Positions 34,642 to 51,151 of a stretch of 64,000 bases of DNA are shown piece after piece. Source of the DNA: Granulicella sp. (GTDB lineage: Bacteria > Acidobacteriota > Terriglobia > Terriglobales > Acidobacteriaceae); assembly GCA_027450185.1 (NCBI GenBank), contig DAIDKF010000014.1, positions 1 through 64,000 on the forward strand. The letters are read 5' to 3'. The translations under genes and the position numbers were made by a program. Positions within the stretch are counted from its first letter, which is position 1, and each line of letters begins with the position of its first letter. Under the pieces are notes generated by a model. The model made no database searches and was not told the DNA's origin. It saw only the letters and a program-made list of their open reading frames with translations.

Positions 34642-37600
34642 CTAGCTGGCAGGAACGATGAGCAGCGTAATCGACTGCGAGGGGAAAGTGGCTGTGATTG
34701 AACTGCTGGTTCCACCCGAAGCCGGCGGTGTTACGGCAATGGCTGTTTGTGCGACGATCGCGCTCAGATTGGCATTGCTATAAAGGAATGACTGCGCCGT
34801 TTCACCCGCGCTTGCAGTGTAGTTTGCAAGCGAGAGAGTTGAGGTCAAAGGACCATAGCTCTTATTAATGACGACGATGGTGATGTCATGATCGGACGAA
34901 CGCAGCGCCCCGTAGACGGATAGCGTGCCCTGATTGGCACTAGTGGAAGACAAGGCCGTGTCACCGAATGCCGAATTTTTCCCATCATAGTTGCGGTAGA
35001 TCTCAAATGCCATGACTCCGGGGATTTGACTGGTGTAGTTGGTCGTTGGCCATAGCATCGCCATGTCGAGACCGTACTTCCCGAAGATGCCTAGGATGTC
35101 AGCCTGGGCCACGGCGCCATTAATGGATTCCATGCCGCCAAAGTTGTACTCGTCGATGGAGGTTTGGGTGCCGGGATAGTCTTTAGCTACCCAACTTTGC
35201 AACATAGGAATTAATTCTGGAGCCTGGAGCGGGATATTGCAGTTTCCTTGTGTGACTGGATCGTAATAGTTGCTATCCGTGGGATAGTTTGGCTGCGTAT
35301 AGTTTGGGTCCGTATAAGTTGGGTCCCAGAAAACACGAGTAGAATTCAGGCGGGCCTGTTGCTCACCTGTGTCTCCAGCTGTAGCTAGGCCAACACTCTC
35401 ACCGTTATAGGTAGCAGCAAAATAAGCATGAATATCTACATAATCAAGAAGCCTCTCACCATAGATCGTAGATGCCGCTGCCATTTGCTGAAGATAGTAT
35501 TCTATGAGTGGTACGCCACCATGCGCGGTTCTATCCGTAGGATCGCTCCACGGCTTATAACATGGTCCAGTTCCATAACCACTATTGACATCCTGCTGCG
35601 AATAAAAATATTGATACCATCCAGAGATGATTGGTCCGCTGACCAGTGCGGTTGGGTCTTCCGTCTTAATGGCAAGAGATGTGCCGATACCTCCGTTTGT
35701 GATCTCGTCATAGGTCATCGGTTTGGGATGCACATCGCGATGAACGGCTGACCAGTACTCCGGTTCATTGTCCAAATCCCAGATGGCTACACCCTTGTTA
35801 CTCGCACCGTTGCCAAGGGAACTATTCGTGACAATTGAATTTACCCAGCCGCCGTCCCATGTAGAGTTAGCCCATGCAGAGGTCGCGCTGCCTGCACCCG
35901 GGGCTACGGGAGGAGGTTCGGCGATGCTGGTAATCGCAGCGATCGTGTCGTTGCCTTCTAAGGTGGTCCCATCAGTATCGACGCCATTGCCGCAGTTGTC
36001 TGCGTCGTAACTCTGCTGATTTGGATCAGCGGATTTCGGGAAACTGCAAGCTTTCACAGTGCTATTCGACACCCAACCGATGACGGACGCTGTACCCAGA
36101 GTCTTAATTCCGAGACCATTCGTTGTCGTGAGGAAATTATTGAAGAGACCACCGCCTAACATGCCCGAAGACCCAGTAAAATTCTCAAAGTAATAGTCGT
36201 TAGCAGAGTTCACGATGTTCGTCTTGTAGTTATAACGTGAGGTATCGTCACCGCCCCAGCGAGCTACCGTAATGTTCGCATTGGTGACCGTTGTCGCATC
36301 GAGAAGATAAGCATTCATACCATAAATATATGGACTGATTGGGCGAGTCGGGTTTCCTGCATCTACCATCAGCGCAGGACCCGCAGTAGTTGCAGGTGCT
36401 GAGAGAGTTACCGTCACGGTCGCGCTCTTGGTGGTGTCCTGGGTGCTGGTCGCGGTAACGGAGACCGTTGCCGGGGCTGGATATGGTGTGGTGTAGAGGC
36501 CGGTTGAGGTGATCGTCCCCGGACTCGATGTGCTGCCGGATGGCGCCATTAATGACCACGTCACAGTATTGCCAGAAAGACCAGTCCCGTTGACGGTGGC
36601 TGTAAACTGCTGAGTTGACCCGATGGTAACCGTTGCTGGGTTGGGTGAGACGGTCACAGACGTTACTGACGGACCGTTGTAGTTGGCTGCAACGGTGGTA
36701 TTGGCATTCATCGTAACGCTGCATGTCACCGTAATGGATGAAGTGCATCCAGTCCAATTATTAAATGTGTTGCCGCCCGCTGTGGAGGGAGCACTTAGGG
36801 TTACGTGTGTCCCAGAGTTATAGGTGCGCGTGAAGCTGGTAATTCCGTTGCCGCTGCCATTGTTATCCGTAGGAGATACGCTGATGGCAACGCCGCTCGA
36901 AGGTGCTGTCGAACTCACGGTGAGTATATAAGTCGTTGAGACAGGAGCGACGAAGTTGGCAACGACGGTAGTATTCGCATTCAGCGTCACTGTGCAGGTG
37001 GCGGAGGCAGCGGGAGCACATCCCGTCCACGACGAGAAGGTATTCGTACCTGATGTTGCTGGAGCGGTGAGCGTGACAGTCGTTCCAGCGTTGTAAGTTC
37101 GTGTGAAGGCCGTAGTTCCATTGGCTGCGCTATTGTTATCCGCAGGAGATACCACAATGGGAACACCGCTGACAGGATTGGTCGAGTTCACAGTCAGCGT
37201 ATAGGTCGTGGGTGGCGGTGGGGCTGCCGTATAGTTCGCCGTGACCGTGGTATTCGCGTTGAGCATCACGGTGCATGTTACGGTCGATGCACTGGTACAT
37301 CCAGACCACCCGGAAAAAGTATTCGACCCCGATGTGGCAGGCGCAGTAAGTTGAATGGAAGTTCCGGAGTTGTAGGTGCGGGTGAAGCTCGTAGCCCCGT
37401 TGGCTGCGCCACTGTTGTCCACAGGAGATACTCCGATGGCCACACCAGTCGTGGGATTGGTCGAATTGACGGTTAGTACGAAGGTGGTTGGTGCCGGGAC
37501 GGAATAGTTTGCGGTCACCGTGGTGTTCGCGTTAAGGACGACGGTGCAGGTCACGGTGCTCGAGGTCGCGCATCCTGTCCATGACGCAAAGGTATTACTG

Positions 37601-37860
37601 CCTGAGATAGAAGCTGCTGTGAGAGTAACGGAGGCTCCGGAGTTATAGGTGCGGGTAAAGCTTGTCGTTCCGTTCGCAGCACCGCTGTTATCCGAAGGAG
37701 CTACACCGATGGCTACGCCACTCGCTGGATTCGTCGAGTTAACGGTGAGCACATAGGTAGTCAAAATCGGGGCGCCTGAACTGCTTCCTCCACCACAACC
37801 AGTCAGAGACAAACCCATCCCCATTGCCAGCCAAACAGCAGTCCAGCGCACCCTCGTCAT
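34642..37860 (-). CDS. GH44 endoglucanase/xyloglucanase lipoprotein with four tandem repeats
   Basis: A 1072-residue surface lipoprotein. The signal ends in LSLTGC (lipidated Cys22). Four repeats of about 84 residues lie at 36-119, 127-210, 220-303 and 311-394; each runs from a T-L-T-V strand to NANTTV-ANY and carries two Cys (W-T-G-C and V-T-C). They resemble InlB-type B repeats. An Ig-like domain follows at about 399-490 (SVTVSPNPATVTIGSTQQF). The rest is a GH44 catalytic domain with the acid/base Glu699 in LDNEPEYW and nucleophile Glu904 in SIDEYNFGG. AAGGAA precedes the ATG. The gene is visibly less GC-rich than its neighbours. Confidence 0.9.
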   Translation of the reverse strand: MTRVRWTAVWLAMGMGLSLTGCGGGSSSGAPILTTYVLTVNSTNPASGVAIGVAPSDNSGAANGTTSFTRTYNSGASVTLTAASISGSNTFASWTGCATSSTVTCTVVLNANTTVTANYSVPAPTTFVLTVNSTNPTTGVAIGVSPVDNSGAANGATSFTRTYNSGTSIQLTAPATSGSNTFSGWSGCTSASTVTCTVMLNANTTVTANYTAAPPPPTTYTLTVNSTNPVSGVPIVVSPADNNSAANGTTAFTRTYNAGTTVTLTAPATSGTNTFSSWTGCAPAASATCTVTLNANTTVVANFVAPVSTTYILTVSSTAPSSGVAISVSPTDNNGSGNGITSFTRTYNSGTHVTLSAPSTAGGNTFNNWTGCTSSITVTCSVTMNANTTVAANYNGPSVTSVTVSPNPATVTIGSTQQFTATVNGTGLSGNTVTWSLMAPSGSTSSPGTITSTGLYTTPYPAPATVSVTATSTQDTTKSATVTVTLSAPATTAGPALMVDAGNPTRPISPYIYGMNAYLLDATTVTNANITVARWGGDDTSRYNYKTNIVNSANDYYFENFTGSSGMLGGGLFNNFLTTTNGLGIKTLGTASVIGWVSNSTVKACSFPKSADPNQQSYDADNCGNGVDTDGTTLEGNDTIAAITSIAEPPPVAPGAGSATSAWANSTWDGGWVNSIVTNSSLGNGASNKGVAIWDLDNEPEYWSAVHRDVHPKPMTYDEITNGGIGTSLAIKTEDPTALVSGPIISGWYQYFYSQQDVNSGYGTGPCYKPWSDPTDRTAHGGVPLIEYYLQQMAAASTIYGERLLDYVDIHAYFAATYNGESVGLATAGDTGEQQARLNSTRVFWDPTYTDPNYTQPNYPTDSNYYDPVTQGNCNIPLQAPELIPMLQSWVAKDYPGTQTSIDEYNFGGMESINGAVAQADILGIFGKYGLDMAMLWPTTNYTSQIPGVMAFEIYRNYDGKNSAFGDTALSSTSANQGTLSVYGALRSSDHDITIVVINKSYGPLTSTLSLANYTASAGETAQSFLYSNANLSAIVAQTAIAVTPPASGGTSSSITATFPSQSITLLIVPAS

Positions 37861-38386
37861 AGGAAGTTCCTTTCGGGTGATAAGGTTATCATAAGTATAG
37901 TTTGACTGTTTTCGAGGTTATAGCAGGTATGCCGAAGCAATAAGCGGTCGTGCTTCCGAAGCAGTTAGACTCGTTGAAATCTGCGGAAATTCTATATTCA
38001 GCAACGCAATCGATGCACTCTATCAGAGTGTCAAAGCCTGAACGCGCCGTACACACTTTGGGCGACGTGTCTTCTTAAGTTGTTTCGATGGGCAGTGTGA
38101 TCAGGAACGCCGGTAGTCGGCAGACGGGCGCCACGGCGCTAACGTCAATGGATCGTTGAACGAAGCTGCACATAGGAGAGTTTGTTTCCTGGAACATTCG
38201 CACCTGCGTGATGTTTGAGTGATATCGCAGATTTCTGCCAATGAACTTTCTGACAACTACTAGAAAACGGCGGGAGAAGTGCCGATAGAACAACGGCAGT
38301 CTAACTCCCTTTACCGGGATTTCTCTGCGGATTCAAGCGCGACAGGTTTACTACTCAGGCAGGCGGTAGTTCAGGGAACAGAGCAT
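37861..38386. other. 526-bp intergenic region between GH44 and motA
   Basis: No supportable gene. GATAA-GG-TTATC at 37879-37890 lies just upstream of the GH44 ribosome site and may be an operator. CACTCT/AGAGTG at 38016-38030 is a 6-bp hairpin with a 3-nt loop. A sigma-28-like promoter is at 38261-38288. Confidence 0.5.
38261..38288 (+). promoter_or_regulatory. sigma-28 (FliA)-like promoter of motAB
   Basis: GCCGATAG at 38281-38288 matches the flagellar -10 consensus GCCGATAA in seven of eight positions. TAGA at 38261-38264, 16 nt upstream, resembles the -35 core TAAA. The start would fall about 90 nt before the motA ATG. Flagellar context makes this plausible. Confidence 0.45.
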
Positions 38387-39271
38387 ATGGCTTCGATCAT
38401 TGGAATTGTGATGGTATTGGGCGCGATCCTGGCCGGATTCCTGATGGAGAAGGGGCCGGTCGCAGTTCTCATGCAGCCTTCCGAGTTCATCATTATTGGC
38501 GGCGCAGCGTTGGGAACGCTGGTTGCTGCGAATCAGATGCATGTATTGAAGAACATTGCGAGAAACCTGGTACTTGTGATTGGAGGGTCAAAGTTCAACA
38601 AACAGCGCTATCTTGATTCGCTCAGGATGATGTTCAACCTATTCAACAAGGCACGGAAAGAGGGGATGGTCGGCATCGAAAACGACATTGAGGAGCCAGA
38701 GAAGAGCCCATTATTTTCCAAGTATCCCAGCTTCATGAAGGACCATCACATTCAATGTTTTGTATGCGATACGATGCGCATGGCCATTACGGGAGGAGCA
38801 ACAGCCTTTGATGTGGACCGGATGATGGAGTTGGATTTGGAGGTCCACCATGCGGGGGCAATGGACCCATCGACGGCGTTGTCGACGATGGCGGATGCGT
38901 TGCCGGGCATTGGAATTGTCGCAGCCGTTCTAGGGATTGTGATTGCGATGAGCGCCCTTGGAGGTCCCCCGGAAGAGATTGGCAAGAAGGTTGCGTCCGC
39001 GCTGGTCGGAACATTTCTTGGCATTCTGATGTGCTACGGGGTGGTGGGTCCGTTGGCTGCAAGCATGGCTAAACTTGTCGATGACGAGCAGGCGTATTAC
39101 CACGTCCTGCAAGTAGTGATGATGTCGTTCATCAAGGGGATGTCGCCGATGCTGGCGATTGAAATGGCCCGGCGAGCCATTCCACAACATGTTCGTCCGA
39201 GTTTTCAAGAGGTTGAGAAAGCCTGCCGCCGCAAAGATGAGCCAGGCCCAGTGGCAGCGGTAGCAGCGTAA
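38387..39271 (+). CDS. motA: flagellar motor stator protein MotA
   Basis: Forms the ion channel of the flagellar stator with MotB. The 294-residue protein has four membrane spans: two near the N terminus (IGIVMVLGAILAGFLM, EFIIIGGAALGTLVAA) and two late (LPGIGIVAAVLGIVIAMS, KKVASALVGTFLGILMCYGVV), separated by a large cytoplasmic domain with RMAITGGATAFDVDRMMELD. The conserved Pro of ALPGIG is present. The start is ATG 38387; the open frame reaches back to 38279, but that region contains the promoter. No other flagellar genes are in the window. Confidence 0.93.
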   Translation: MASIIGIVMVLGAILAGFLMEKGPVAVLMQPSEFIIIGGAALGTLVAANQMHVLKNIARNLVLVIGGSKFNKQRYLDSLRMMFNLFNKARKEGMVGIENDIEEPEKSPLFSKYPSFMKDHHIQCFVCDTMRMAITGGATAFDVDRMMELDLEVHHAGAMDPSTALSTMADALPGIGIVAAVLGIVIAMSALGGPPEEIGKKVASALVGTFLGILMCYGVVGPLAASMAKLVDDEQAYYHVLQVVMMSFIKGMSPMLAIEMARRAIPQHVRPSFQEVEKACRRKDEPGPVAAVAA

Positions 39272-39292
39272 CTGTCTTTAGAAGGTGGCATC

Positions 39293-40078
39293 GTGGCAGA
39301 GGCACCAGAGATCATTATCATCCGCAAGAGAGCGTCCCATGGCAAACCCCATGGTGGTGCGTGGAAGGTGGCGTACGCTGACTTTGTGACGGGGATGATG
39401 GCGCTGTTCATTGTGCTCTGGCTGATGAACGCAAGCCAGCAAGTCCAGACGGCGGTCGGAGGTTATTTCAAAGACCCGCATGGGACCACCAAGAAGATGG
39501 GAATTCAAGACGTCTCAACTGTAGCCCTGCCATCCTTGAAGAAGGAAGACATGCAGAAGCTCAAGGAAGAGATTCTCAAGTCGATTCAGCGCATCGATCC
39601 GTTGAACAAACTAAAGAATCAGATCGAGATCACGATTACGTCGGAAGGACTGCGGATTGAACTGATGGAGTCGGCGAAGGGTACATTTTTTGAGTTGGGG
39701 AGCGCGGCGCCGACTCCCGCGCTGAAGGATCTGCTACAGGTATTAGCACCGGAACTGGGAAAGCTGCCGAACAACATCTCCATCGAGGGACACACGGATT
39801 CGACACCGTATTCCGGGAGCAAAGCGTACGACAACTGGGATCTGTCCTGCGACCGGGCAAATGCCGCGAGACGCATGATGCAGGAGCAGGGGTTGCGTCC
39901 GCACCAGATATCGCAGGTTCGCGGGTTTGCGGATCAGCGTCTGCGCTTGCCAGAGCATCCGGAGGATCCGTCCAATCGCCGCGTGTCTCTGATCGTCCAG
40001 TACCAGGTGAAGTCCGATGCGGAGGTGCCGCTGCCCGGAGACCTCAAGCTTTCGAATACGATTCCGTCTCTGAAGTAG
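39293..40078 (+). CDS. motB: flagellar motor stator protein MotB
   Basis: Anchors the stator to peptidoglycan and carries the ion-binding Asp. The 261-residue protein has a short basic N terminus, one span with Asp30 in VAYADFVTGMMALFIVLWLMNA, a plug/linker region (MQKLKEEILKSIQRID), and a C-terminal OmpA-like domain (GTFFELGSAAPTPALKDLL, IEGHTDSTPY, WDLSCDRANAARRMM, VRGFADQRL, NRRVSLIVQY). GTG start at 39293 with AAGGTGG upstream. It follows motA by 21 bp in an evident operon. Whether the ion is H+ or Na+ is not decided by sequence. Confidence 0.93.
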   Translation: MAEAPEIIIIRKRASHGKPHGGAWKVAYADFVTGMMALFIVLWLMNASQQVQTAVGGYFKDPHGTTKKMGIQDVSTVALPSLKKEDMQKLKEEILKSIQRIDPLNKLKNQIEITITSEGLRIELMESAKGTFFELGSAAPTPALKDLLQVLAPELGKLPNNISIEGHTDSTPYSGSKAYDNWDLSCDRANAARRMMQEQGLRPHQISQVRGFADQRLRLPEHPEDPSNRRVSLIVQYQVKSDAEVPLPGDLKLSNTIPSLK

Positions 40079-40117: not shown

Positions 40118-40972
40118 CTAGCGCGCAGCCTGTCGCAGAGACGGATTTTTTTGTCCGTCGCCAGTTCCCGCCAGCCGAAGTGTAATCACCATCGCCGGCA
40201 CCAGGTATGCGAACGATCCGAGCACCCACATCAGCACGGCCCCCAGGACCTGATCCTCGAGCACCGGAATGTGAAACGGGTTCGGATGAGTGACGTAGTA
40301 GCTGTAAACCGGCCGGTCGCAGAAGGCGAGAAACGCGGAGAGCAGCGTCATCACCACGTCGCCCAGCGCCAGGTAAACCAGCATGCCCCAATCATCCGGC
40401 CGCTGCTTTGCAGGCCACGGACGAAAGATATACCACCAGAACAGTAGAGACGTGAGAAAGAAGCAAAGGTGCTCCATCCCATGAACCGTCTCGTTCTCCA
40501 GCGCCAGGTTGTAAGCCGCTGGAATATGCCAGCATAGATAGGCCAGATTCATCGCAAGCCACGCAATCGCAGGCGTCACCAGCCACTCTGCAATGCGCCG
40601 CAGCGCTGTCACGCGCAGCAGCGGTCCAACAACCCGACGCAGTATGGGAGCAGGCAACCCGTGTAGCAGCGGCACGACGGGAAGCCCATAGAGCAGCAGC
40701 ATCGGAATCGCCGACATCAGCAGCAGGTGCTCGATCATGTGCACGGTCAGCAGCGAATCGGCAAACCCATCGAGCGGCGAAGCCACCACGATCCACAACA
40801 GTGCCAGCCCACCCATAAATGAGACGAGCCGTTCGCCATCAAACTGCTCGCGCCGGGTTCTGCGAATCGCCAACCAACCGCGAAGGTACAGGGCCGCGGT
40901 GATGAGCATCGAGAGCGTCAGCCATATCGGCAGGCTCCAGTCAGCGAAGATATCACGCACCGCGTCGGACAT
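40118..40972 (-). CDS. ctaG: caa3-type CtaG, cytochrome c oxidase assembly factor
   Basis: A 284-residue membrane protein of the caa3_CtaG family, needed for CuB-site formation in caa3 oxidases of Bacillus. About seven spans are visible, with conserved His residues as potential copper ligands in TVHMIEHLLLMSA, LCWHIPAAYN and GMEHLCFF. It is the last gene of the oxidase operon, starting 3 nt after the cytochrome b gene stops. This is not the Cox11-type protein that shares the CtaG name in proteobacteria. Confidence 0.9.
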   Translation of the reverse strand: MSDAVRDIFADWSLPIWLTLSMLITAALYLRGWLAIRRTRREQFDGERLVSFMGGLALLWIVVASPLDGFADSLLTVHMIEHLLLMSAIPMLLLYGLPVVPLLHGLPAPILRRVVGPLLRVTALRRIAEWLVTPAIAWLAMNLAYLCWHIPAAYNLALENETVHGMEHLCFFLTSLLFWWYIFRPWPAKQRPDDWGMLVYLALGDVVMTLLSAFLAFCDRPVYSYYVTHPNPFHIPVLEDQVLGAVLMWVLGSFAYLVPAMVITLRLAGTGDGQKNPSLRQAAR

Positions 40973-40975
40973 AGA

Positions 40976-42508
40976 TTACGGCTTCAGGGTTGAGTTCCCT
41001 GCCACATGAGACGCAGGCGCACCGACCTGACTTGTGTGGGTCAGTTCCCGTGAGGCATCGATGGCTGGTTGCAGTCCATCGCCACGCAACGTCATCAGGA
41101 AGCTCACGAGTGCCTTGGTCTCGGACGGGTTCAGAGCGTTGCCGTATGCTGGCATATTGCCCCCGCCCTGCAGCACCTGGCGGACAATCTGGTCCTCGGT
41201 CATGCGGCTCGCAACCGAATCCAGCTCCGGCCCTCGCAGGCCGCCATGGCCATCGAGCGAATGGCAACTGCGGCACTGTTTGTCCTGTAGCACCAGCGCA
41301 CCCTCGCGCTCGAGCGGTGTTCGGTCGTGCATATACCTCACCGGAACCGCGTCACTGGACCACGCGTTCATGATCGGGCTCCAGGGCGTATAGGTTCCCA
41401 GCCGCGTAAAGATTCCCAGCGTCACGGCGATCACTGAAACCATCAGCACCGCAACCGGACGTCGTGCCCAGTGACGCTCGCCTTCACTGGCAATAAGCGG
41501 CAGCAAGAGCATCGCCGCAATCCCCAGCACCGGCGCCACGAGCAGCACGGGAGTCTCGAGATTCGGGGGAAGGAAAGCCAGCACCGCATAGATCCAGAGG
41601 AAGGCAAAGTCTGGTTTGGGTGCGGTCTGGATGATGGTCGGGTCGGGCTGGCCGCCGGGGCCGAAGGGCCCAAAGAAGAAGGCGCACGCCATCACCGCGA
41701 AGAGGATAGCAGCAGCAAACACCGCGTCCTTCCAGGCCGCATCGGGCACAAACGGGATGCCCGTCTTCTCGGTGAGTTCGTGGTACTCACGCTCGTAGGT
41801 GGATTTGCGTACGAGGCGTCCCGGCATCGGCCAGTCGCTGACGCCATGCCGCAGAACCATGAAGACATGCACGCCAACCCCGGCCAGCAGCAGGCCCGGA
41901 ATCACGAAGACATGCAGCGTAAAGAAGCGTGAAAGCGTCGCTCCGCCGATGATGGGCCCGCCGAGCACCATGTGGACCAACTGTGCTCCAATGCCCGGGA
42001 TGCGGCTCGAGATGGAGGCTCCAATCCCGAGCCCCCAGTAAGCATCCTGGTCGAACCGCATCACCTGGCCGGTGAAGGCCATGCCCAGGGTCAGCAGCAG
42101 CAGGACAACGCCGACGATCCAGGTCAACTCTCGCGGAAACTTGTACGAACCGAAGAGAAACACCTGCACCATGTGAATCAGCACGATGGCAATCATGAAG
42201 TCAGATCCCCATCCGTGCAACGCACGCAGGTACCATCCAAGCGCGACGTTATGATTCAGAAAATTCAGGCTCGTCCAGGCCTCACTTGCCGACGGGCTAT
42301 AAACCAGTGCCAGCAAGATGCCGGTAACCACCTGCAACAAGAGAAGCACCGTTGCCGCGCTTCCAAAGACATACCACCAGCTCGCATTGTTTGAAGGCGT
42401 CGGGTGTTCGGCGGCTTCGGTCAGCGGCTTGATCAGGCCGAGCCGATGCTCAAGCCATGCATACGCCTTGGATCCCGTGGATGTTCCGCGCTCGTTCAGC
42501 CTTCCCAT
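40976..42508 (-). CDS. cytochrome b (full-length) fused to a C-terminal cytochrome c domain
   Basis: A 510-residue membrane subunit of a Rieske/cytochrome b quinol oxidoreductase. Residues 45-250 form the four-helix haem b core with ligands in RALHGWGSD, VLIHMVQVF, FTLHVFVIP and GVHVFMVLRHG. The subunit IV-like part follows in the same chain. At the Qo site the usual PEWY is replaced by PDFA (in KPDFAFLWIYAV). Residues 400-510 are a class I cytochrome c with CRSCH at 412-416 and a Met ligand in GNMPAYG. Its start overlaps the Rieske gene by 13 bp. It passes quinol electrons toward the caa3 oxidase encoded upstream. Confidence 0.9.
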   Translation of the reverse strand: MGRLNERGTSTGSKAYAWLEHRLGLIKPLTEAAEHPTPSNNASWWYVFGSAATVLLLLQVVTGILLALVYSPSASEAWTSLNFLNHNVALGWYLRALHGWGSDFMIAIVLIHMVQVFLFGSYKFPRELTWIVGVVLLLLTLGMAFTGQVMRFDQDAYWGLGIGASISSRIPGIGAQLVHMVLGGPIIGGATLSRFFTLHVFVIPGLLLAGVGVHVFMVLRHGVSDWPMPGRLVRKSTYEREYHELTEKTGIPFVPDAAWKDAVFAAAILFAVMACAFFFGPFGPGGQPDPTIIQTAPKPDFAFLWIYAVLAFLPPNLETPVLLVAPVLGIAAMLLLPLIASEGERHWARRPVAVLMVSVIAVTLGIFTRLGTYTPWSPIMNAWSSDAVPVRYMHDRTPLEREGALVLQDKQCRSCHSLDGHGGLRGPELDSVASRMTEDQIVRQVLQGGGNMPAYGNALNPSETKALVSFLMTLRGDGLQPAIDASRELTHTSQVGAPASHVAGNSTLKP

Positions 42509-43131
42509 GTCGTGGACCTCGTCTCAGGGGTTGGTGGCGCAATCTGCACAAGAGGCTTGTCTTTACACGATGCCTGCGTCGCAAGCGTCGGCATGTCGCC
42601 CGCATGGATCACCAGCGAGTTCCCTGCAATCTTATATCTGTATTCGAAGAGCCCACGTTCCGGAGGGCCCGAGGCCCGGCTTCCGTCTTCGTAGTACGCA
42701 CCTCCGTGGCACGGACAAAGGAAGAGCTTCGACTCGGAGAACCATCTCACCGGGCAACCGAGATGCGCACAGTTGATGGCGAACACCTGAAACTTCTGGG
42801 CAGAGACGCGCCGAACCCAACAGGAAACCTTGGCGGTTTCGCCATCGTCGAACGTGGCAACCGGGCTTCTGAACTCCGCCAGCCGCGTCTCCCCCACAGG
42901 AAAATCGGCGACATCGCCTATGCTGATCCACGTACCGGCAGCAGACTTCTTCTTCGCAGCCGGTCCTAGCAAATACCCGAACAGCGGCACGGCAAGAACA
43001 GCACCCACGACAGCATTCATTCCCACCGCAAGCTTGAACAGGAAGGCCCTGCGCGTGTGCGCGGCCGCCTTACCCTCCGGCGGCAACGCATCGTTACTGG
43101 ATTCTCCTGGGTATTTCAGAAATTCGCTCAT
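42496..43131 (-). CDS. Rieske iron-sulfur protein
   Basis: A 211-residue Rieske [2Fe-2S] subunit. The N terminus has a twin-arginine signal anchor (HTRRAFLFKLAVGMNAVVGAVLAVPLFGYLLG) that stays as a membrane tether. The cluster motifs are NCAHLGCPV and LCPCHGGAY, each giving a Cys and a His, with the disulfide cysteines also present. It extends about 35 residues past the Rieske fold (DMPTLATQASCKDKP). I chose ATG 43131 as the usual N terminus. It overlaps the cytochrome b gene and follows the dihaem cytochrome by 25 bp. Confidence 0.93.
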   Translation of the reverse strand: MSEFLKYPGESSNDALPPEGKAAAHTRRAFLFKLAVGMNAVVGAVLAVPLFGYLLGPAAKKKSAAGTWISIGDVADFPVGETRLAEFRSPVATFDDGETAKVSCWVRRVSAQKFQVFAINCAHLGCPVRWFSESKLFLCPCHGGAYYEDGSRASGPPERGLFEYRYKIAGNSLVIHAGDMPTLATQASCKDKPLVQIAPPTPETRSTTWEG

Positions 43132-43156
43132 ACTGGTCTCCGCACGTTGGTTAAAT

Positions 43157-43888
43157 CTATGGACGCGTGTAAGGCTGGCCGGGCGTGGCAATCCGATGCG
43201 ATGCCAGCCATGCGACGGTGTCGGTGATCTCCTGATCGGTCATGGCCCGCGAACCTGCGCCCGCGATGTCGGAGCGCCAGTCGGGCATGTTGTCCTGAGG
43301 TTGGCCGGCAATGATCAAGCTGCGCAGCCCCTGGTCGCTGATCAGTGCCAGGTAGGCCGGATCCACAAGCGAGCCCGTGTGCAGCTTCCCACGTATCACT
43401 CCTGTCCCATCGGCTCCGTGGCAACTTGCGCAGAACGTGGAGAACGCTATTTGTCCTCGTGCCGAATCTCCCGCAGAGGTGCTCGCATAGGGTGGCGCTG
43501 CTTGACCGCCGAGAGCATTCGGGCTTCCCCACTCAGCCTCAAGGCCTTGTGCGAGCACCGCGATCTGCTGGTCGGTGAGCATGCCTCCCTGACTCTTGGC
43601 AAAGGCCGGCATCAATGTGCCCGGAACACCCTTCGCCGTAATCTCCTGGATGTGATGCCCCCCCGCCACGGCAAGGTATACGGGATTTGCCAGCGAGATC
43701 GCGGCTCCATTTTTTCCGTTTTCACCATGGCAGGCAGCGCAGTTGTCCTTGTAGAGCACTGCGAAACTCAATACCTGGTCCGGGCGCGTTGCCGGGGCTT
43801 CTGGCCGTCCGGGCGCTTGCTTGCATCCGGCACAGAGAAGAGCGAGAGCGCAGGCCATCATCGAATGGCTCAATGAGCGAAGATTCAT
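43157..43888 (-). CDS. dihaem cytochrome c lipoprotein
   Basis: A 243-residue exported cytochrome with two class I haem domains: CAACH at about residue 50 and CASCH at about 153, with candidate Met ligands in TLMPAFAKS and DNMPDWR. The N terminus ends in LLCAGC, a lipobox, so it is probably tethered to the outer face of the membrane. It should carry electrons between the Rieske/cytochrome b part and the CuA/haem c domain of CtaC. Its start overlaps the stop of the preceding membrane gene as ATGA. Confidence 0.88.
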   Translation of the reverse strand: MNLRSLSHSMMACALALLCAGCKQAPGRPEAPATRPDQVLSFAVLYKDNCAACHGENGKNGAAISLANPVYLAVAGGHHIQEITAKGVPGTLMPAFAKSQGGMLTDQQIAVLAQGLEAEWGSPNALGGQAAPPYASTSAGDSARGQIAFSTFCASCHGADGTGVIRGKLHTGSLVDPAYLALISDQGLRSLIIAGQPQDNMPDWRSDIAGAGSRAMTDQEITDTVAWLASHRIATPGQPYTRP

Positions 43889-44775
43889 TGCGGAGTGTCC
43901 TTATCGTCTGAATCCGTTGGCTCGATGGGTTCCCATTCGCGGAGATTGCTGTGCAGACCTGCCCGCACGGAAAATGGTAACGCCTGAAACTGGGGCGTCC
44001 TCACCTTGGCCTGCAGATTGACCACAAACCCGCAGACAAGTCCGAAGGCGATCTGGGAGATGACAAACCAGAACCAGTCAATGCGTTGATTGAGGATGGG
44101 ACTCACGATGCCGATAGCAGAGTGCAGAATACCGGTGAAGAGCAACGGGGCCATGAAGCCTGCTGTAACAATCGGGTACTTGGGAAACATGGGCAGCATC
44201 GCTCCGTAGAGCAGCCCCACAAGAAGCGAGGTGAGCCCATGGATCACGAGCGCTGCCAGTAACCCGCGGAGGTGGAACTCGCTGAGAAATGCATTGCTGG
44301 CGCCAGCCCAACTGAGAAATCCGCCGGCCGCCAGCAGGTTCATCGCATACCAGATGCTGTGGTACTTGAGTTCACTGAAGATCGCAGCAGGTACAGCCAT
44401 CGCAATGCCGCCCGCGATGCCACCCTTGATGCCGGTGGTAATACGGAAGGTTTCAACGGGGATGATTTTGCGGGATGTAGCGTCCGCCGGAAGTCTGGTT
44501 GCGAGAGTCCGAGAGCTGAAGATGGGAACCTCTTCGGTGCTCACTTCGACGCTCTCATGCGCCTCGTGCGGCAGCACCTGACGAAACCAGCCAACCGTCG
44601 CTGCAATTGTCAGCACTGCGCCCAACGCACTTACGATACCGCTGGTGACCATGCCGAAGAGAACAAGCGCGATGCCCAGCGCGAGCACCATCGGCCACGC
44701 GGTAGGGGATGGGAGATGCAGCCCATGGTCTTGTTTGGGATGATCGACGTGCAACGTGCCTCCTTGTTGGGTCAT
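43885..44775 (-). CDS. uncharacterised multispan membrane subunit of the bc-caa3 operon
   Basis: A 296-residue membrane protein I cannot assign to a named family. Residues 27-64 form two spans (WPMVLALGIALVLFGMVTSG, IVSALGAVLTIAATVGWF) like the small subunit IV of caa3 oxidases. A soluble stretch follows (EAHESVEVST, ATSRKIIPVETF), then about five more spans between 114 and 253, including SIWYAMNLLAAGGFLSW and RIDWFWFVISQIAFGLVCGF. The tail is acidic. It overlaps both neighbours (ctaE by 4 bp, the cytochrome gene by 4 bp), so it is made in step with the complex. It may be a fused subunit IV plus a linker protein between the two complexes. Confidence 0.6.
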   Translation of the reverse strand: MTQQGGTLHVDHPKQDHGLHLPSPTAWPMVLALGIALVLFGMVTSGIVSALGAVLTIAATVGWFRQVLPHEAHESVEVSTEEVPIFSSRTLATRLPADATSRKIIPVETFRITTGIKGGIAGGIAMAVPAAIFSELKYHSIWYAMNLLAAGGFLSWAGASNAFLSEFHLRGLLAALVIHGLTSLLVGLLYGAMLPMFPKYPIVTAGFMAPLLFTGILHSAIGIVSPILNQRIDWFWFVISQIAFGLVCGFVVNLQAKVRTPQFQALPFSVRAGLHSNLREWEPIEPTDSDDKDTPQ

Positions 44776-45365
44776 CTGCCCAACACGTAAACGACCAGAA
44801 ATACGATGACCCATACCCCATCGACGAAGTGCCAATAGAGCGACAACACCTCGAGCTTCTCGGTGTGTTCGTGTGTCATCTGACCGCGCAGAGAGAACCA
44901 CAGGGCCAGCGCAAGCATGATCAACCCGACGAGCACATGGGTTGCATGCAGTCCGACCAGCGAATAAAACGTGGTTCCAAAAAGATTGGTGCTGATCGTC
45001 AAACCATGGTTATAGATCAGGTCGTACCATTCGTGGGCCGTTCCCGCGAGGAAGATCCCGCCAAGGAGCACCGTCGCAGCAAGCCAGAGGGAACACAGAT
45101 GTCGCTTGCTCCGGCTCAACGCAGAGACTGCGGCATGCACCGTCAGGCTGCTTGAAAGCAGGCAGATGGAGGTGAAGATCGGCAGGGTCAGGACTTCCTT
45201 CGGCGTGGGCCCAGCCAGGCTCTTTCCCATATAGAAGATATAGGCCACGACGAAGATGATGAAGATGGACGCTTCCGCGAGGATCAGGCAAACCATGCCC
45301 ACAATGCCACGGGAGGGCAGCACCCATTCTTCGTTCGGATTGGAAATCAAAGCGACGTCGCTCAC
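44772..45365 (-). CDS. ctaE: cytochrome c oxidase subunit III
   Basis: A 197-residue, five-span subunit III of the haem-copper oxidase, short form as in caa3 enzymes. Visible are GMVCLILAEASIFIIFVVAYIFY, TLPIFTSICLLSSSLTVHAA, LFLAGTAHEWYDL, SLVGLHATHVLVGLIML, and the C-terminal YWHFVDGVWVIVFLVVYV signature. Subunit III stabilises the proton-pumping subunit I. It overlaps ctaD and the following membrane gene by 4 bp each. Confidence 0.94.
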   Translation of the reverse strand: MSDVALISNPNEEWVLPSRGIVGMVCLILAEASIFIIFVVAYIFYMGKSLAGPTPKEVLTLPIFTSICLLSSSLTVHAAVSALSRSKRHLCSLWLAATVLLGGIFLAGTAHEWYDLIYNHGLTISTNLFGTTFYSLVGLHATHVLVGLIMLALALWFSLRGQMTHEHTEKLEVLSLYWHFVDGVWVIVFLVVYVLGR

Positions 45366-47092
45366 AGGCTCTCCTCCTGGCTGCTCCTGGGAAGATGCTG
45401 CTCTGTCTCGTAGTTGCTGTCAGGGTCCTCGGGATGCTTCAGATCCCATAGGGGCCGCCGGCTGGCAACGGTGGGGGTTTTGGCGAAGTTATACGCGGGC
45501 GGAGGCGACGTTGTCGACCACTCGAGCGTCCAGGCGTCCCATGGATCTGCCCCGGCGACTGCACCCTTGAAGTACGACCACACCATGTTGAACACGAACA
45601 GAAGCGTTGCAACAGCCTGAATGGCAGCTCCGCTGGACACAATCATGTTCCAGATCATCCAACCTCGATCGGCTTCGTAGGTGTAGATGCGGCGGGGCAT
45701 GCCCAGGAGGCCGGGTATGTGCATGAAGTCGAAGGTCAGGTGAAAGCCGATCACAAAGAGCCAGAAGTGCCACTTGCCCAGATGCTCGCTCAGCATGCGC
45801 CCGGTCACCTTGGGATACCAGTAATAGAAGGCCGAGAACAGCATGAAGAGGATAGCCCCGACCAGAACGTAGTGGAAGTGCGCCACCACAAAATAGGAGT
45901 TACCCAGTTGCCAGTCGAATGGTGCAACCGAGAGCATGATGCCCGTCAGACCAGCGACGAGGAACTGGAAAAGAAAACCGATGGCAAACAACATTGAAAC
46001 CGTGAAATGGATCTTGCCTCCCCACAATGTCGCCAGCCAGTTGAAGATTTTGATGCCTGTAGGCACCGAAATCACCATCGTAGCCAGCACAAAGAAGGTG
46101 TTGGCGCCGGGACCAAGCCCGACCGTGAACATGTGGTGCGCCCACACGCCGAGACTGATGAAGCCGATGCCCACCGACGCTGCCACCATCGCCGGATATC
46201 CGAAGATTGCCTTGCGCGAAAAGACTGGAATGATCTCATTGGCGAATGCAAACGCCGGGAGCACAAGAATGTAGACCTCGGGATGACCAAAGATCCAGAA
46301 GAAGTGCATCCAAAGCACAGCCGATCCACCCGCCTGCGTGTCGAAGAAGTGGCTTCCCGCATAACGGTCGAGCATCAGCATGATCTGCGCAGCAGTGAGC
46401 GGGCCAACGGCAACGAAGGTCATGCACGAGGTGACGAGGTACAGCCACACCAGCAGGGGCAGCCTGCTCATCTTCATGCCCGGGCAACGCATGCTGATGG
46501 TTGTCGCCACGATGTTCAGCGCTGTGCCAATCGTCCCAACCCCGCTGAGCAACACGGCGAGCGTCCAATAATCCGTACTGTGGCCGGGCGAGAATACGCG
46601 CGAGGTCAGGGGGGCATACGCAAACCAACCTACGTCCGGAGCACTGCCGGCGCCGTACAGTCCGCTTCCACCTATATAGCTGTAATAGAGAAGTATGCCG
46701 CCAAACGCTGAGATCCAGAAGCTAAACGCGTTCAGCCGCGGAAACGCCATGTCGCGGGCGCCAATCATCAGTGGGATGAGATAGTTTCCGAAACCGAAGA
46801 GGATGGGCATCCCGACGAAAAACACCATCGTCGTTCCATGCACTGTAAACAGGCCGTTGAAGACCTGGGGCGAGACGAAGTGATTATTCGGAACCGCCAG
46901 TTGAATGCGCATGAGCAAGGCTTCAAACCCAGCCACGACCAGGAAAAACAGCGCATAGCCGATATACATCAGGCCAATTTTCTTGTGATCGACCGTCGTC
47001 ACCCAGCCATGAAGCACCTCTAGCCAAAGAGGCCTGGATGGCTTCGACGCTGCTGCATTGTGCGTCTCAATTGCCGGAGTTTGCGTTGCCAT
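45362..47092 (-). CDS. ctaD: cytochrome c oxidase subunit I
   Basis: The catalytic haem-copper subunit. The 576-residue, 12-span protein has the low-spin haem ligand in FTVHGTTMVFF, D-channel residues in GARDMAFPRLN, the CuB ligand and cross-linked Tyr in FGHPEVYIL, the His pair WAHHMF, K-channel residues in SVPTGIKIFNW, and the haem ligands in VVAHFHYVL. The Glu of GHPEVY marks it as A-family with D and K channels. ATG 47092 has AAGGAA upstream. A C-terminal soluble tail follows the last span. Confidence 0.97.
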   Translation of the reverse strand: MATQTPAIETHNAAASKPSRPLWLEVLHGWVTTVDHKKIGLMYIGYALFFLVVAGFEALLMRIQLAVPNNHFVSPQVFNGLFTVHGTTMVFFVGMPILFGFGNYLIPLMIGARDMAFPRLNAFSFWISAFGGILLYYSYIGGSGLYGAGSAPDVGWFAYAPLTSRVFSPGHSTDYWTLAVLLSGVGTIGTALNIVATTISMRCPGMKMSRLPLLVWLYLVTSCMTFVAVGPLTAAQIMLMLDRYAGSHFFDTQAGGSAVLWMHFFWIFGHPEVYILVLPAFAFANEIIPVFSRKAIFGYPAMVAASVGIGFISLGVWAHHMFTVGLGPGANTFFVLATMVISVPTGIKIFNWLATLWGGKIHFTVSMLFAIGFLFQFLVAGLTGIMLSVAPFDWQLGNSYFVVAHFHYVLVGAILFMLFSAFYYWYPKVTGRMLSEHLGKWHFWLFVIGFHLTFDFMHIPGLLGMPRRIYTYEADRGWMIWNMIVSSGAAIQAVATLLFVFNMVWSYFKGAVAGADPWDAWTLEWSTTSPPPAYNFAKTPTVASRRPLWDLKHPEDPDSNYETEQHLPRSSQEESL

Positions 47093-47112
47093 TGTGTTCC
47101 TTCCTGAACGCA

Positions 47113-48126
47113 TTACTTAAGCGTGGTTAGGTATGCCGTCACAGCATCAAGATCATGACTGTTCAAGTGCATGGGTGGCATGAGCACCCCCGGTTTCAGG
47201 TTCGCTGGATTCTCTATGAATCTGTGGAGATTCTCCGGCGTATTGGGCACGGAACCCGATGCAATCGTATCGCGGCTGGCAAGATGGGTAAGATCGGGGC
47301 CGAATCTACCCGTAGCCACCGTTCCGCGGATAGTGTGGCAACTGATACATGCATTGTGCATGAAAACGTCACGGCCCTCCGCAACGCGAGGATCCTCCAC
47401 GGCTGGCTGCTGCTGGTGCGCTACCCAGGCTGCAAACTCCTGCGGCGTATCGGCGTAGACGCGAATCAGCATCTTCGCATGCTGCACTCCGCAGTACTGG
47501 GCGCACTGTCCCAGATACAGCCCTGGCGCTTGAGGATCGATCCACATGGTGTTGACCTTGTTCGGAATCACGTCGGTCTTCCCTGCAAGCCGCGGCACCC
47601 AGAAACTGTGGTCCGTATCCGCCGATGACATGGTCAAATAGGTTGGCAACGGATGGCTCGGATCACTAACCGGGACATGGAGTTCGTTGGCCGTCACAAT
47701 ACCCAGCTTGGGGTAGCTAAATTCCCACCAGAACTGACGCCCGATGACGGTGACATCCAGCGCGTCGGCCGGCTTGCGAGCATGCTCGGTCGTGTAGATA
47801 ACCCGCGTTGTGGCCAGAAACAGCATCACGACGATCAGGACCGGGATGACCGTCCAGGAAAGCTCAATCTGGTTGCTTCCATAGATCTGGTGGGGCTCCT
47901 GTTCGCTCTTGTCACCCGATTTGCGCCAGCGATAGCGCACCAGAACATAGATCAGGATGCCGGACACGATCACAAAGATTGCACTCGTAACGCCAAGCAC
48001 CAACATCGACAGGCTGAAGATTGAGTTCGCAGGAGTCCCCGCCGGCGCGAACATGTTCGTTGGATCGGCGCCCACGGCCGACGTTGCTATCGCGGCGAGG
48101 CCGCACCATCCTTGACTCGCGAACAT
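47113..48126 (-). CDS. ctaC: cytochrome c oxidase subunit II with C-terminal cytochrome c domain
   Basis: Accepts electrons at the CuA centre, making this a caa3-type oxidase. The 337-residue protein has a signal, two spans (about 37-63 and 90-108), the aromatic run GRQFWWEFSYP, CuA ligands His173 and C208/C212/H216/M219 in QCAQYCGVQHAKM, and a fused haem c domain with CISCH at 260-264 and a Met ligand in LMPPMHL. The usual Glu between the CuA cysteines is Gln210. ATG 48126 has GGGAG 4 nt upstream. First gene of the operon. Confidence 0.96.
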   Translation of the reverse strand: MFASQGWCGLAAIATSAVGADPTNMFAPAGTPANSIFSLSMLVLGVTSAIFVIVSGILIYVLVRYRWRKSGDKSEQEPHQIYGSNQIELSWTVIPVLIVVMLFLATTRVIYTTEHARKPADALDVTVIGRQFWWEFSYPKLGIVTANELHVPVSDPSHPLPTYLTMSSADTDHSFWVPRLAGKTDVIPNKVNTMWIDPQAPGLYLGQCAQYCGVQHAKMLIRVYADTPQEFAAWVAHQQQPAVEDPRVAEGRDVFMHNACISCHTIRGTVATGRFGPDLTHLASRDTIASGSVPNTPENLHRFIENPANLKPGVLMPPMHLNSHDLDAVTAYLTTLK

Positions 48127-48530: not shown

Positions 48531-49580
48531 ATGAAAAAAGCTGCTACCGTGTTGATCGTTGGATCGGCCATGATGTCCTGCTGTGTCGCTGCGCGTGCGC
48601 AGAAGACAGAGTTCTGGATGGGCGATGGAGCTGCGTCGGTAAATTCGTTCTTGGCGCACAGCAACAGGATCGATATCATCTCGCCAACGTGGTATCAGAT
48701 CGATGAGACGGGACTGGTCAGTGGCGAGCCGCAACCCGTCGTACTGAAGGCAGCTAAAGCAGCTCACCTCTCGATCATTCCTCTGTTCGCGCTGTTCAAT
48801 CACGAGAAACTTCATACTCTGGCCGGCGACGAAAAGGCGCAGGACGAGATGAACAAGGCCTTCATCCGCGAGTGCAAGGAGAACGGCTACGACGGCATTA
48901 ACCTGGACATAGAAGATGTGATGTGGACGGACCGCGATGGCCTGTCTGCGCTGGTGAAAAAGACTGCGGACGCGTTGCACCGCGAACATCTGCAGGTGCA
49001 GATCGACGTTGTGCCAAACGCCCCGGGGCATCCGGGCGCGGCGGCCTTCAGCAAGTGGATCTTTGAAGAGTGGCGGGGAGGTTACGACTTGAAAGCCCTG
49101 GCTGAGTCCGTGGACCTGATCTGCCTGATGACCTATGACCAGAACACGCACTGGACGGAACCTGGCCCCGTGGATGGGTGGGGCTGGACCAAAGAGAATC
49201 TGGATTACGCGCTGAAGGTGGTTCCCAAAAACAAGTTGTCGCTGGGCATCGCACTGTATGGCTACCACTGGTTCACGGGCGACCCCGGACTGAAGAAGGG
49301 CGAGAAGACGCCGAACCCCACAGCGGAGTACATCTCCGAGCCGAACGCCATCTTCCTGCGCGATACATACGGCGGCAAAACGCAGTGGGACGAGCAGGAG
49401 CACACGCCCTGGTTCTACATCAATCGCGACCAGATGCGGGAGTGGGTCTTCTACACCGACAAGCGGGCGTTCATGGACCGCTATGATCTCGCCAGGGAGG
49501 CTGGGATCCAAGGCGTCTGCGCGTGGGTATTGGGCGAAGAGGATCCTGCAATCTGGGCGGCCATTCCGGATAAGCGATAG
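48531..49580 (+). CDS. exported GH18-family glycoside hydrolase
   Basis: A 349-residue secreted (beta/alpha)8 protein with a signal peptide (TVLIVGSAMMSCCVAARAQ). The GH18 signature is DGINLDIED at 121-129, giving Asp121, Asp126 and catalytic Glu128. ICLMTYDQNTHW and LGIALYGYHWF match later strands, and AWVLGEEDPAIW the last. The order resembles YaaH/SleL-like GH18 enzymes that act on peptidoglycan or spore cortex as well as chitinases. It sits next to nagA and GH20, so the product probably feeds amino-sugar catabolism. A perfect palindrome terminates it. Confidence 0.87.
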   Translation: MKKAATVLIVGSAMMSCCVAARAQKTEFWMGDGAASVNSFLAHSNRIDIISPTWYQIDETGLVSGEPQPVVLKAAKAAHLSIIPLFALFNHEKLHTLAGDEKAQDEMNKAFIRECKENGYDGINLDIEDVMWTDRDGLSALVKKTADALHREHLQVQIDVVPNAPGHPGAAAFSKWIFEEWRGGYDLKALAESVDLICLMTYDQNTHWTEPGPVDGWGWTKENLDYALKVVPKNKLSLGIALYGYHWFTGDPGLKKGEKTPNPTAEYISEPNAIFLRDTYGGKTQWDEQEHTPWFYINRDQMREWVFYTDKRAFMDRYDLAREAGIQGVCAWVLGEEDPAIWAAIPDKR

Positions 49581-49613
49581 CGCGGGTGAAAGATTTTCAG
49601 TGCAGCCCGGAGC

Positions 49614-49633
49614 GCCCCCTCTATAGAGGGGGC
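49614..49633. terminator. 20-bp perfect palindrome between GH18 and nagA
   Basis: GCCCCCTCTATAGAGGGGGC is its own reverse complement. It lies between the converging stops of GH18 and nagA and is followed by the T-rich ATTCTTATT. It should act as a bidirectional terminator. Confidence 0.75.
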
Positions 49634-49684
49634 ATTCTTATTCCGGCAACAAAATACCTTGTTGCGGCACACTTACTGAAGCGG

Positions 49685-50821
49685 CTACTCAAATAGCTGT
49701 CCATGGAAGATGCTTCCCGTGCGATCTCCAGCCTCATCGAACACGTTGAAGTTCGCGGGAGTACCCGGCGTCATCTGTGTGAGGTGAGGCATGCCCATCA
49801 TGCGCGCAGGGTTGCGCGAGGCCAATCGAACCGCGGCGCTGAGGGGCGTACCGGTAAACCGCCGCACATTCGCAACCGCCCGGTCCATCGTCAGGACGCT
49901 GCCCGCCAGTGTCTCGCCCAGCAGGCAGACACCATCCTTCACCACCACCTCAAAATCCCCTAGGTTATAGGTTCCGTCAGGCACACCCGTCGCCGACATT
50001 CCATCCGTCACCAGAATCGCATAGTCCTCGCCCTTCATCTTGAGCCATAAGCGGATGATCGCGGGATGCACATGCACGCCGTCGCAGATGGCTTCGGCAT
50101 ACACGTCTGAACGATCCAGAATCGTTCCCACGATACCCGGCTCGCGATGGTCCAGTGGGCGCATTGCGTTGAACAGGTGCGTCGAACTCGTCGCTCCCGC
50201 AGCGATGGCCGCGAGCGTCTCCGCCGAGGTTGCCATGCTGTGGCCCATGGTTACGCGTACGCCGGCAGCGGTCACGTGCTCGATCAACTCCAGCGCATGC
50301 GGCAACTCGGGAGCCATCGTCATCAATCGGATATGCCCACGCGCGGCCTGCTGCAACCGGTCAAATAACTCCACGCTCGGCTCACGAATACTAGCGTCGG
50401 GATGCACACCCCGCTTGCCGTGTGAGACGAACGGCCCTTCCAGATGGATACCTAACGGGATCGCCACCGGATCCCCGGATACATGCTTGCGAGGGTGCTC
50501 AATCGCATCGGCGAGATGCTCCATCGCCCTGAGGGTCAGATCCAGCGGAGCCGTCACGGTCGTGGGCAGATAATGCGCGACGCCCCGACTGGCCAAAAAC
50601 CGTCCCACCTCTGTAGTACCGGCAGCATCGGCCGCCATGAAGTCGAAGGATCGCGCACCATGGACGTGGATATCGAAGAATGGCGCGGTGAGGGTATCCG
50701 TTGAATCGTTTGCCGGCCCCGCCTCGACGCCGGCAATGTGACCATCCTCGACCGACACGACCGGGTACTCAATCTCTCCAGCGTCAGTAATTAATCTGCG
50801 TGCGGTAAGTCTCTTAAACAT
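49685..50821 (-). CDS. nagA: N-acetylglucosamine-6-phosphate deacetylase
   Basis: Removes acetate from GlcNAc-6-phosphate to give glucosamine-6-phosphate. The 378-residue amidohydrolase has DIHVHGARS, IHLEGPFVS with the metal Glu, VTMGHSMATS, STHLFNAMRPLDHREPG, GVHVHP, and the catalytic Asp in LVTDGMSATG. The first metal motif is HVHG, as in family members. The start at 50821 is the expected N terminus (MFKRLTARRL). It is separate from but functionally linked to the kinase and SIS genes at 54-56 kb. Confidence 0.94.
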   Translation of the reverse strand: MFKRLTARRLITDAGEIEYPVVSVEDGHIAGVEAGPANDSTDTLTAPFFDIHVHGARSFDFMAADAAGTTEVGRFLASRGVAHYLPTTVTAPLDLTLRAMEHLADAIEHPRKHVSGDPVAIPLGIHLEGPFVSHGKRGVHPDASIREPSVELFDRLQQAARGHIRLMTMAPELPHALELIEHVTAAGVRVTMGHSMATSAETLAAIAAGATSSTHLFNAMRPLDHREPGIVGTILDRSDVYAEAICDGVHVHPAIIRLWLKMKGEDYAILVTDGMSATGVPDGTYNLGDFEVVVKDGVCLLGETLAGSVLTMDRAVANVRRFTGTPLSAAVRLASRNPARMMGMPHLTQMTPGTPANFNVFDEAGDRTGSIFHGQLFE

Positions 50822-51151
50822 CGATTTCCATTCTTGGTTCCAGAACTCATCGAGGCGGACCGGCAACCTTCCTTAGGGCTACTCCTGCCGTCTCAAAAGA
50901 GCGCGTACTGCTGTGTTATCCCAAAGCTACGCTGAAAGCTCCGAAGGGGGCCGCAAGGAATCTTCCGTGATACATCTGTCTCTCTTCGGTGTGGTGCAAT
51001 CGACATCGGGAATCCGAAGCCAGTTTTTGAGCGGCTCCTTCAAAAAACTCTTGCCCACACCAGAGGGAGTGTGTTCTTGTAGTACACGATAGCTCATAAG
51101 TTTGCGCACTTCAATATAAAAAGATCATTTTCATGGGGACTGATTTTCATC
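50822..51151. other. 330-bp divergent region between nagA and the GH20 gene
   Basis: No supportable gene. TATAAA at 51115-51120 lies 31 nt before the GH20 ATG and is a possible -10. No riboswitch-like fold is recognised. Two candidate control zones for the amino-sugar regulon are expected here. Confidence 0.45.

Follow-up and report, generated by a model that had tools for sequence, protein, structure and literature searches.

What does an unnamed membrane protein do when its gene stands between the oxidase genes and the Rieske/cytochrome b genes of an acidobacterial respiratory operon? The operon lies on the minus strand at 40118-48126 of a 64,000-nucleotide stretch of DNA from Granulicella sp. 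of the family Acidobacteriaceae (GCA_027450185.1, contig DAIDKF010000014.1, positions 1 to 64,000), which is called the window throughout. Eight genes were confirmed in it from the list of open reading frames (ORFs), Pfam and NCBIfam searches and counts of CxxCH motifs, in the order (5' to 3') ctaC fused to a cytochrome c domain, ctaD, ctaE, the gene of the protein in question (X), the gene of a dihaem cytochrome c, the Rieske gene, a cytochrome b-c fusion and ctaG. Our answer is that X is probably an integral oxidase subunit that completes a split subunit III and carries an extra domain at the interface of complexes III and IV (III-IV interface), where it would hold complex III and/or the dihaem cytochrome.

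This answer starts from subunit III. The CtaE of the window, 197 residues long, covers only positions 79-257 of the 258-position COX3 profile and is without helices 1-2. When a profile of 21 X sequences was searched against the Protein Data Bank (PDB) with matches kept up to E 10, the only one was a subunit III N-terminus (E 0.016; the sequence of 6hu9, from S. cerevisiae according to PMC8361435). With a second profile, built from seven such helix pairs and searched against 177,635 PDB sequences (matches up to E 10), seven matches were obtained; the best six were all subunit III N-termini (E 7.6e-4, 0.001, 0.02 and 0.36-0.42) and the seventh, at a non-significant E of 3.5, was a membrane protein of 7qhm, the Corynebacterium bcc-aa3 supercomplex (PMC8795186). 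Alignment of the helix pairs by hhalign with four longer subunit III sequences of the seven-helix type from the same order gave 95.7% and E 1e-8 (control E 0.15), and X alone gave 89.7% and E 1.8e-6. Residues ~20-70 of X also match the C-terminal part of Cyt_c_ox_IV (PF12270) at 18.2 bits, or 22.3 bits for the helix pair alone, against a cut-off of 26.9 bits; matches to this family were found for 16 of 21 X sequences at E <= 0.1 and for six of seven helix pairs at E <= 1. By these sequence comparisons the N-terminal helix pair of X is a homologue of helices 1-2 of oxidase subunit III and, since CtaE matches COX3 only from position 79, the helices missing from CtaE sit at the start of the next gene. 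Helices 1-2 of a seven-helix COX3 thus correspond to a pair that in X is encoded by a separate gene downstream of ctaE and fused to a different domain. A preliminary description of the window had called this segment a subunit IV pair of helices, which is correct and can be narrowed to subunit III helices 1-2, given the profile and hhalign results and the precedent of M. smegmatis, where subunit III consists of CtaE and CtaF and CtaF supplies helices 1-2 (PMC8361435).

The distribution of X points the same way. Full-length X was found in 19 of 61 relatives, and exactly these 19 also have a ctaD of at least 72% and a cytochrome b of at least 64% identity; all of them belong to the 37 same-family genomes of the sample, and the other 18 genomes of the family are without all three at these levels. 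Among 396 genomes of the phylum (four of which, G000, G004, G019 and G035, are shared with the first sample), the second membrane domain of X was present in 24, all of the same family, with a single query as well as with a profile; among the sampled genomes it is confined to a single family. A cytochrome b of at least 63% identity occurred in 25 of the 396, namely these 24 and G244 from another family, in which X cannot be seen because the contig begins partway through the gene of the dihaem cytochrome. In all 65 loci fetched (19/19, 21/21 and 25/25 in three sets that share species and are not independent), X stands between ctaE and the dihaem cytochrome gene, far more often than chance would allow. 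Of the 21 longer loci, 16 show all eight genes (in two of these loci an end gene is truncated) and five are cut by contig ends; in one locus (L045) X is split between two frames. The preliminary description had suggested that X is structural, and the exact co-inheritance and the fixed position support this. It had also named homologues lying mostly away from oxidase genes as evidence that would speak against it; none lay apart from oxidase genes in the searched genomes of Acidobacteriota, with other phyla covered only thinly. A scan of genome contigs from many phyla gave 21 loci, with patterns that came from X itself and therefore find close relatives only. The second domain had no tblastn match in plasmids and its profile no relative in viral contigs, both searches having low sensitivity for distant copies.

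Some individual genomes deserve mention. The G244 contig (C789, locus L102) is 6.6 kb long, and its cytochrome b at 63% identity reflects either gene transfer or contamination. G289 carries two X copies (contigs C1 and C3) and two copies of the cytochrome b of the X-operon type. The sole profile match outside the family, in G306 (E 0.0066), fell in an ORF that looks by eye like a glycosyltransferase and was dropped from the count. The genome that holds the window (G000) is 54% complete.

Relatives of the helix pair without the second domain were met in another family of the order. Five genomes there gave matches to the N-terminus only (L020-L024), which were not counted as X: in L020, L021, L022 and L024 the match is to the start of a longer subunit III gene, and in L023 to a 101-residue helix-pair protein. 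The full operon of this kind, in G038 (L079), runs ctaC-ctaD-ctaE-ctaG-helix-pair protein (101 residues)-Rieske-cytochrome b-c, and the small protein shares 40% identity with X (E 7e-6). A similar arrangement is found on plasmid p_2 of Deinococcus sp. D7000 (CP058536.1, L077), with coxB, ctaD, subunit III, an assembly protein, a 125-residue helix-pair-like protein, Rieske and cytochrome b-c; in contrast to the window its assembly gene precedes the helix-pair gene and its Qo motif is PDWY. Both operons are without the second domain and without the dihaem cytochrome. Judged from two outgroups, the simplest history would be a joint gain of the second domain and the dihaem cytochrome in Acidobacteriaceae.

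The features of the window operon are as follows.

47113-48126, minus strand: ctaC, oxidase subunit II with a CuA domain and a C-terminal haem c domain (TIGR02866 over cut-off, COX2, Cytochrom_C; one CxxCH)
45362-47092, minus strand: ctaD, oxidase subunit I with the A1-type GHPEV motif (TIGR02891 over cut-off; motif)
44772-45365, minus strand: ctaE, short oxidase subunit III of 197 residues without the N-terminal helix pair, its GTG start overlapping ctaD (COX3 match from profile position 79)
43885-44754, minus strand: X, 289 residues from the probable TTG start at 44754, or 296 from the ATG at 44775 (start comparison of 21 sequences)
44566-44718, minus strand: helix pair of X, a homologue of helices 1-2 of subunit III that also resembles the C-terminal part of Cyt_c_ox_IV (below cut-off)
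43948-44466, minus strand: second membrane domain of X, with four clear spans plus a weak one and without a Pfam or NCBIfam match above cut-off
43157-43888, minus strand: dihaem cytochrome c with a lipoprotein-like N-terminus (lipobox by eye; two CxxCH; Cytochrome_CBB3, Cytochrom_C)
42496-43131, minus strand: Rieske iron-sulphur subunit with CAHLGC and CPCHGG (PF00355 over cut-off)
40976-42508, minus strand: cytochrome b with a fused monohaem c domain and PDFA in place of PEWY as Qo motif (PF00033, PF13442; motif, CxxCH)
40118-40972, minus strand: ctaG, caa3 oxidase assembly factor (PF09678, 6.8e-55)

The genes are tightly packed. ctaC and ctaD are 20 nt apart (ctaD begins with an ATG at 47092), ctaD and ctaE overlap by 4 bp, as do X and the dihaem cytochrome gene, the gap between the latter and the Rieske gene is 25 nt, the Rieske and cytochrome b genes overlap by 13 bp, and 3 nt separate cytochrome b from ctaG. 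A single-strand operon joining the Rieske/cytochrome b complex to a caa3 oxidase, as put forward in the preliminary description, is thus borne out, with eight genes instead of the nine claimed there; its 4-bp overlaps or gaps below 30 bp hold at most junctions but not at the Rieske/cytochrome b overlap, and the overlap between ctaE and X is doubtful. Scans for promoters and terminators in the operon gave nothing beyond what shuffled sequences gave. The GHPEV motif of CtaD is taken here as the mark of an A1 oxidase and, with the gene order, it puts the A1 caa3 genes ahead of the bc1 genes within a single operon.

The doubt about ctaE and X concerns the start codon. With the ATG at 44775, X would be 296 residues long and its gene would overlap ctaE by 4 bp; seven codons further in, a TTG at 44754 is preceded by AAGGAGG. 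Among 21 aligned sequences, the codon at the position of this TTG is ATG in seven, TTG in five (the window included), GTG in one and TTT in three, with a gap in five; most of the 13 sequences with a start codon have an AGGAG-like run ahead of it, and L027 has no ATG at the ctaE overlap. On the other side, an in-frame ATG occurs at the position of 44775 in six of the 21 sequences, the window among them. From this comparison TTG 44754 is probably the better candidate, so that X would be 289 residues long and begin 17 nt after ctaE, and the length of 296 residues given earlier is probably not the true one; of the coupling proposed on both sides of X, the part toward ctaE is in doubt. The remaining findings on X are independent of the start codon used.

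The second membrane domain of X is the part that sets it apart. In the average of 50 sequences, residues 118-252 show four clear hydrophobic spans and one weak one, so that the domain, described earlier as five-span, probably has four. Lys and Arg average 5.7 in the linker before the domain and 5.6 in the tail after it (acidic residues 4.9 and 5.3); equal values on both flanks would fit an even number of spans with both ends in the cytoplasm, an argument that is weak because the acidic residues nearly balance the basic ones. A stretch of the form H..WY..NLL is invariant in sets of 22 and 11 sequences. No Pfam or NCBIfam family matched the domain over cut-off. A model of the domain alone (22 sequences; predicted local distance difference test, pLDDT, 69.5; predicted template modelling score 0.61) has four long helical segments, the first of them kinked and followed by short helices; the model of full-length X was left out of the fold search because of its pLDDT of 48. 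Foldseek found no match to the domain model at E <= 0.001, and the best VIA-align match was chain E of a Na+-pumping NADH-quinone oxidoreductase with Z 4.9, which is in the common range (root mean square deviation 3.6, 100 residues aligned).

One candidate family was pursued. DUF6789 (PF20587), a small membrane family whose GxxGG...H...YG pattern is similar by eye to the second domain, gave weak hmmscan matches to two of 11 domain sequences (best 5.3e-5), and its best full-length score was 20.6 bits (21.9 in a genome search) against a cut-off of 27.1 bits; it was not among the matches of the window X up to E 1. In profile comparisons by hhalign, two DUF6789 groups reached E 0.079 and 0.18, with the negative control at 0.071 and a positive control between two DUF6789 groups at 9.2e-12, so that kinship is unproven, although with alignments as shallow as these a distant one may exist. 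DUF6789 genes elsewhere in the phylum gave no help on the family of the domain. Haloarchaea carry DUF7541 and DUF6789 near oxidases, and weak matches of both families suggested a haloarchaeal link; in the one haloarchaeal plasmid region inspected (L076), ctaD was without listed DUF7541 or DUF6789 neighbours.

How could such a protein work in the complex? In M. smegmatis the oxidase touches the cytochrome b of complex III chiefly through CtaE and CtaF (PMC8361435). We infer that ctaE would provide the main part of subunit III, with helices 1-2 coming from the N-terminus of X, the role that CtaF has in Actinobacteria, and that X would be made beside CtaE and packed against it in the oxidase. Its second domain would then lie at the III-IV interface, because complex III docks on that flank of subunit III in the mycobacterial supercomplex, and would probably hold complex III and/or the dihaem cytochrome in place. 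Electrons would pass from quinol through the Rieske centre and the haems c to CuA and oxygen, without a soluble carrier.

The likeness to the actinobacterial bcc-aa3 supercomplex extends to the split subunit III with helices 1-2 on a separate subunit (PMC8361435), to the presence of a dihaem cytochrome (QcrC; PMC8795186) and to a Qo motif without Glu and Trp, PDFY or PDVY there and PDFA in the window. Unlike actinobacterial CtaF, X has an extra C-terminal membrane domain; the dihaem cytochrome of the window is lipoprotein-like, whereas the actinobacterial one has a C-terminal membrane helix, and the window has further haems c on cytochrome b and CtaC. Variability of subunit III has been noted for M. 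smegmatis and for a supercomplex with alternative complex III (ACIII) (PMC8361435). Neither the operon nor the idea of a supercomplex is new, since the bc1-A1 caa3 superoperon of Acidobacteriaceae, with the same A1 caa3 genes upstream of bc1, has been described and supercomplexes have been suggested (Trojan et al. 2021, PMC8407424); the same paper reports that one strain transcribed such superoperons when oxygen was at nanomolar levels. The main text of that paper does not contain 'ctaF', 'hypothetical' or 'subunit IV', and no mention of a gene between ctaE and the bc1 genes was found there. No description of X was found in the literature searched, among the matches listed. What appears to be unreported, judged from the literature searched, is a subunit III helix pair that is encoded by a separate gene, as in Actinobacteria, and in addition fused to a membrane domain.

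In the cytochrome b of X operons the Qo motif, where covered (window and L025-L045), is PD[FY] followed by A, F, I or P in 20 of 20 sequences, 14 of them PDFA, so that the tyrosine of PEWY is lost. Other cytochrome b sequences above 150 bits with the motif covered had PEWY or PDWY (11/11; L023, a fragment of the L079 gene, was left out). A literature search returned no PDFA Qo motif among the matches listed. The genome of the window has two further clusters of note: ACIII-like genes (by eye) adjoining an oxidase with a YSHPAV motif (L089, G000:C9:24000-40000), an ACIII-A2 caa3-like cluster that is apparently the second superoperon type of PMC8407424, and a second Rieske-cytochrome b cluster (L090, G000:C12:22000-38000) with a split, b6-like cytochrome and multihaem-looking cytochromes (by eye). 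Relatives of the window's cytochrome b with 40-42% identity stand beside narGHJI-like nitrate reductase genes (by eye) in L080, L081 and L082.

Other readings of the same facts were weighed. The second domain may be the membrane dock of the dihaem lipoprotein-like cytochrome instead of a clamp for complex III, X tying this carrier to the oxidase. We regard this as a real though lesser possibility: domain and dihaem gene occur together in all 65 X loci, both are missing from the L079 and L077 operons, and the genes overlap by 4 bp, but the outgroup operons are only two, and the cytochrome seems by eye to be lipid-anchored already, so that a four-span dock would exceed the need. It is quite unlikely that X is an assembly or insertion factor (for copper, haem or the membrane insertion of CtaD/CtaE) whose helix pair binds CtaD before X leaves. 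The operon does end in the assembly gene ctaG and the conserved H..WY..NLL stretch could bind a ligand, but the helix pair matches the part of subunit III missing from CtaE, and no other gene of the operon was seen to supply these helices. The two complexes might also be merely co-regulated and meet through a diffusible cytochrome c, X and its operon being ordinary; among the literature matches listed, none reports an isolated supercomplex from these bacteria. We consider this unlikely, since the actinobacterial analogues form supercomplexes (PMC8361435) and the operon, the only part of the genome searched for one, encodes no soluble carrier: CtaC and cytochrome b each carry a fused haem c domain, and the dihaem cytochrome seems to have a lipid anchor.

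Several points weigh against X as an interface subunit. The preassembled quinol-to-oxygen supercomplex is a plausible prediction from the genes, and membership of the operon is by itself no proof of a subunit because ctaG shares the operon. The match of X to Cyt_c_ox_IV falls short of the Pfam cut-off, the model of full-length X is poor and that of the domain middling, and neither fold nor function of the second domain was matched in the Pfam/NCBIfam, Foldseek or VIA-align searches. The co-inheritance amounts to few independent events, because the 19 and the 24 genomes are one family. The outgroups number only two, and hhalign of X against the Deinococcus 125-residue protein alone was weak (13%, E 0.0021), so that the kinship of the latter depends mostly on motif and position.

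The surroundings of the operon gave some further observations. Genes resembling motA and motB by eye (38279-40078) converge on ctaG, and a 1072-residue secreted-looking protein (34642-37860) has, by eye, four ~75-residue repeats (LTVNSTNP...TVTANY) before a larger domain. Beyond the 5' end of the operon, at 48531-53317, genes that resemble by eye those for a family 18 glycoside hydrolase, an N-acetylglucosamine-6-phosphate deacetylase and a hexosaminidase may form a chitin cluster. The GC skew of the window shifts near 40-50 kb from ~+0.24 to ~-0.24, a pattern like that of a replication terminus; a search with a single pattern found no dif-like site at the turn.

Returning to X as an oxidase subunit, we propose tentatively, at a little under even chances, that it represents a new class of bridge subunit, in which a mobile subunit III helix pair was combined with a new membrane domain that arose with the dihaem lipoprotein cytochrome and with a cytochrome b without the Qo tyrosine, giving Acidobacteriaceae a III-IV interface unlike the actinobacterial and ACIII ones. 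Should X prove to be an interface subunit, it would illustrate how a partner complex can be recruited by splitting subunit III and adding to it. In Acidobacteria, which are abundant in soils, X is one gene through which the need for joined complexes becomes testable.

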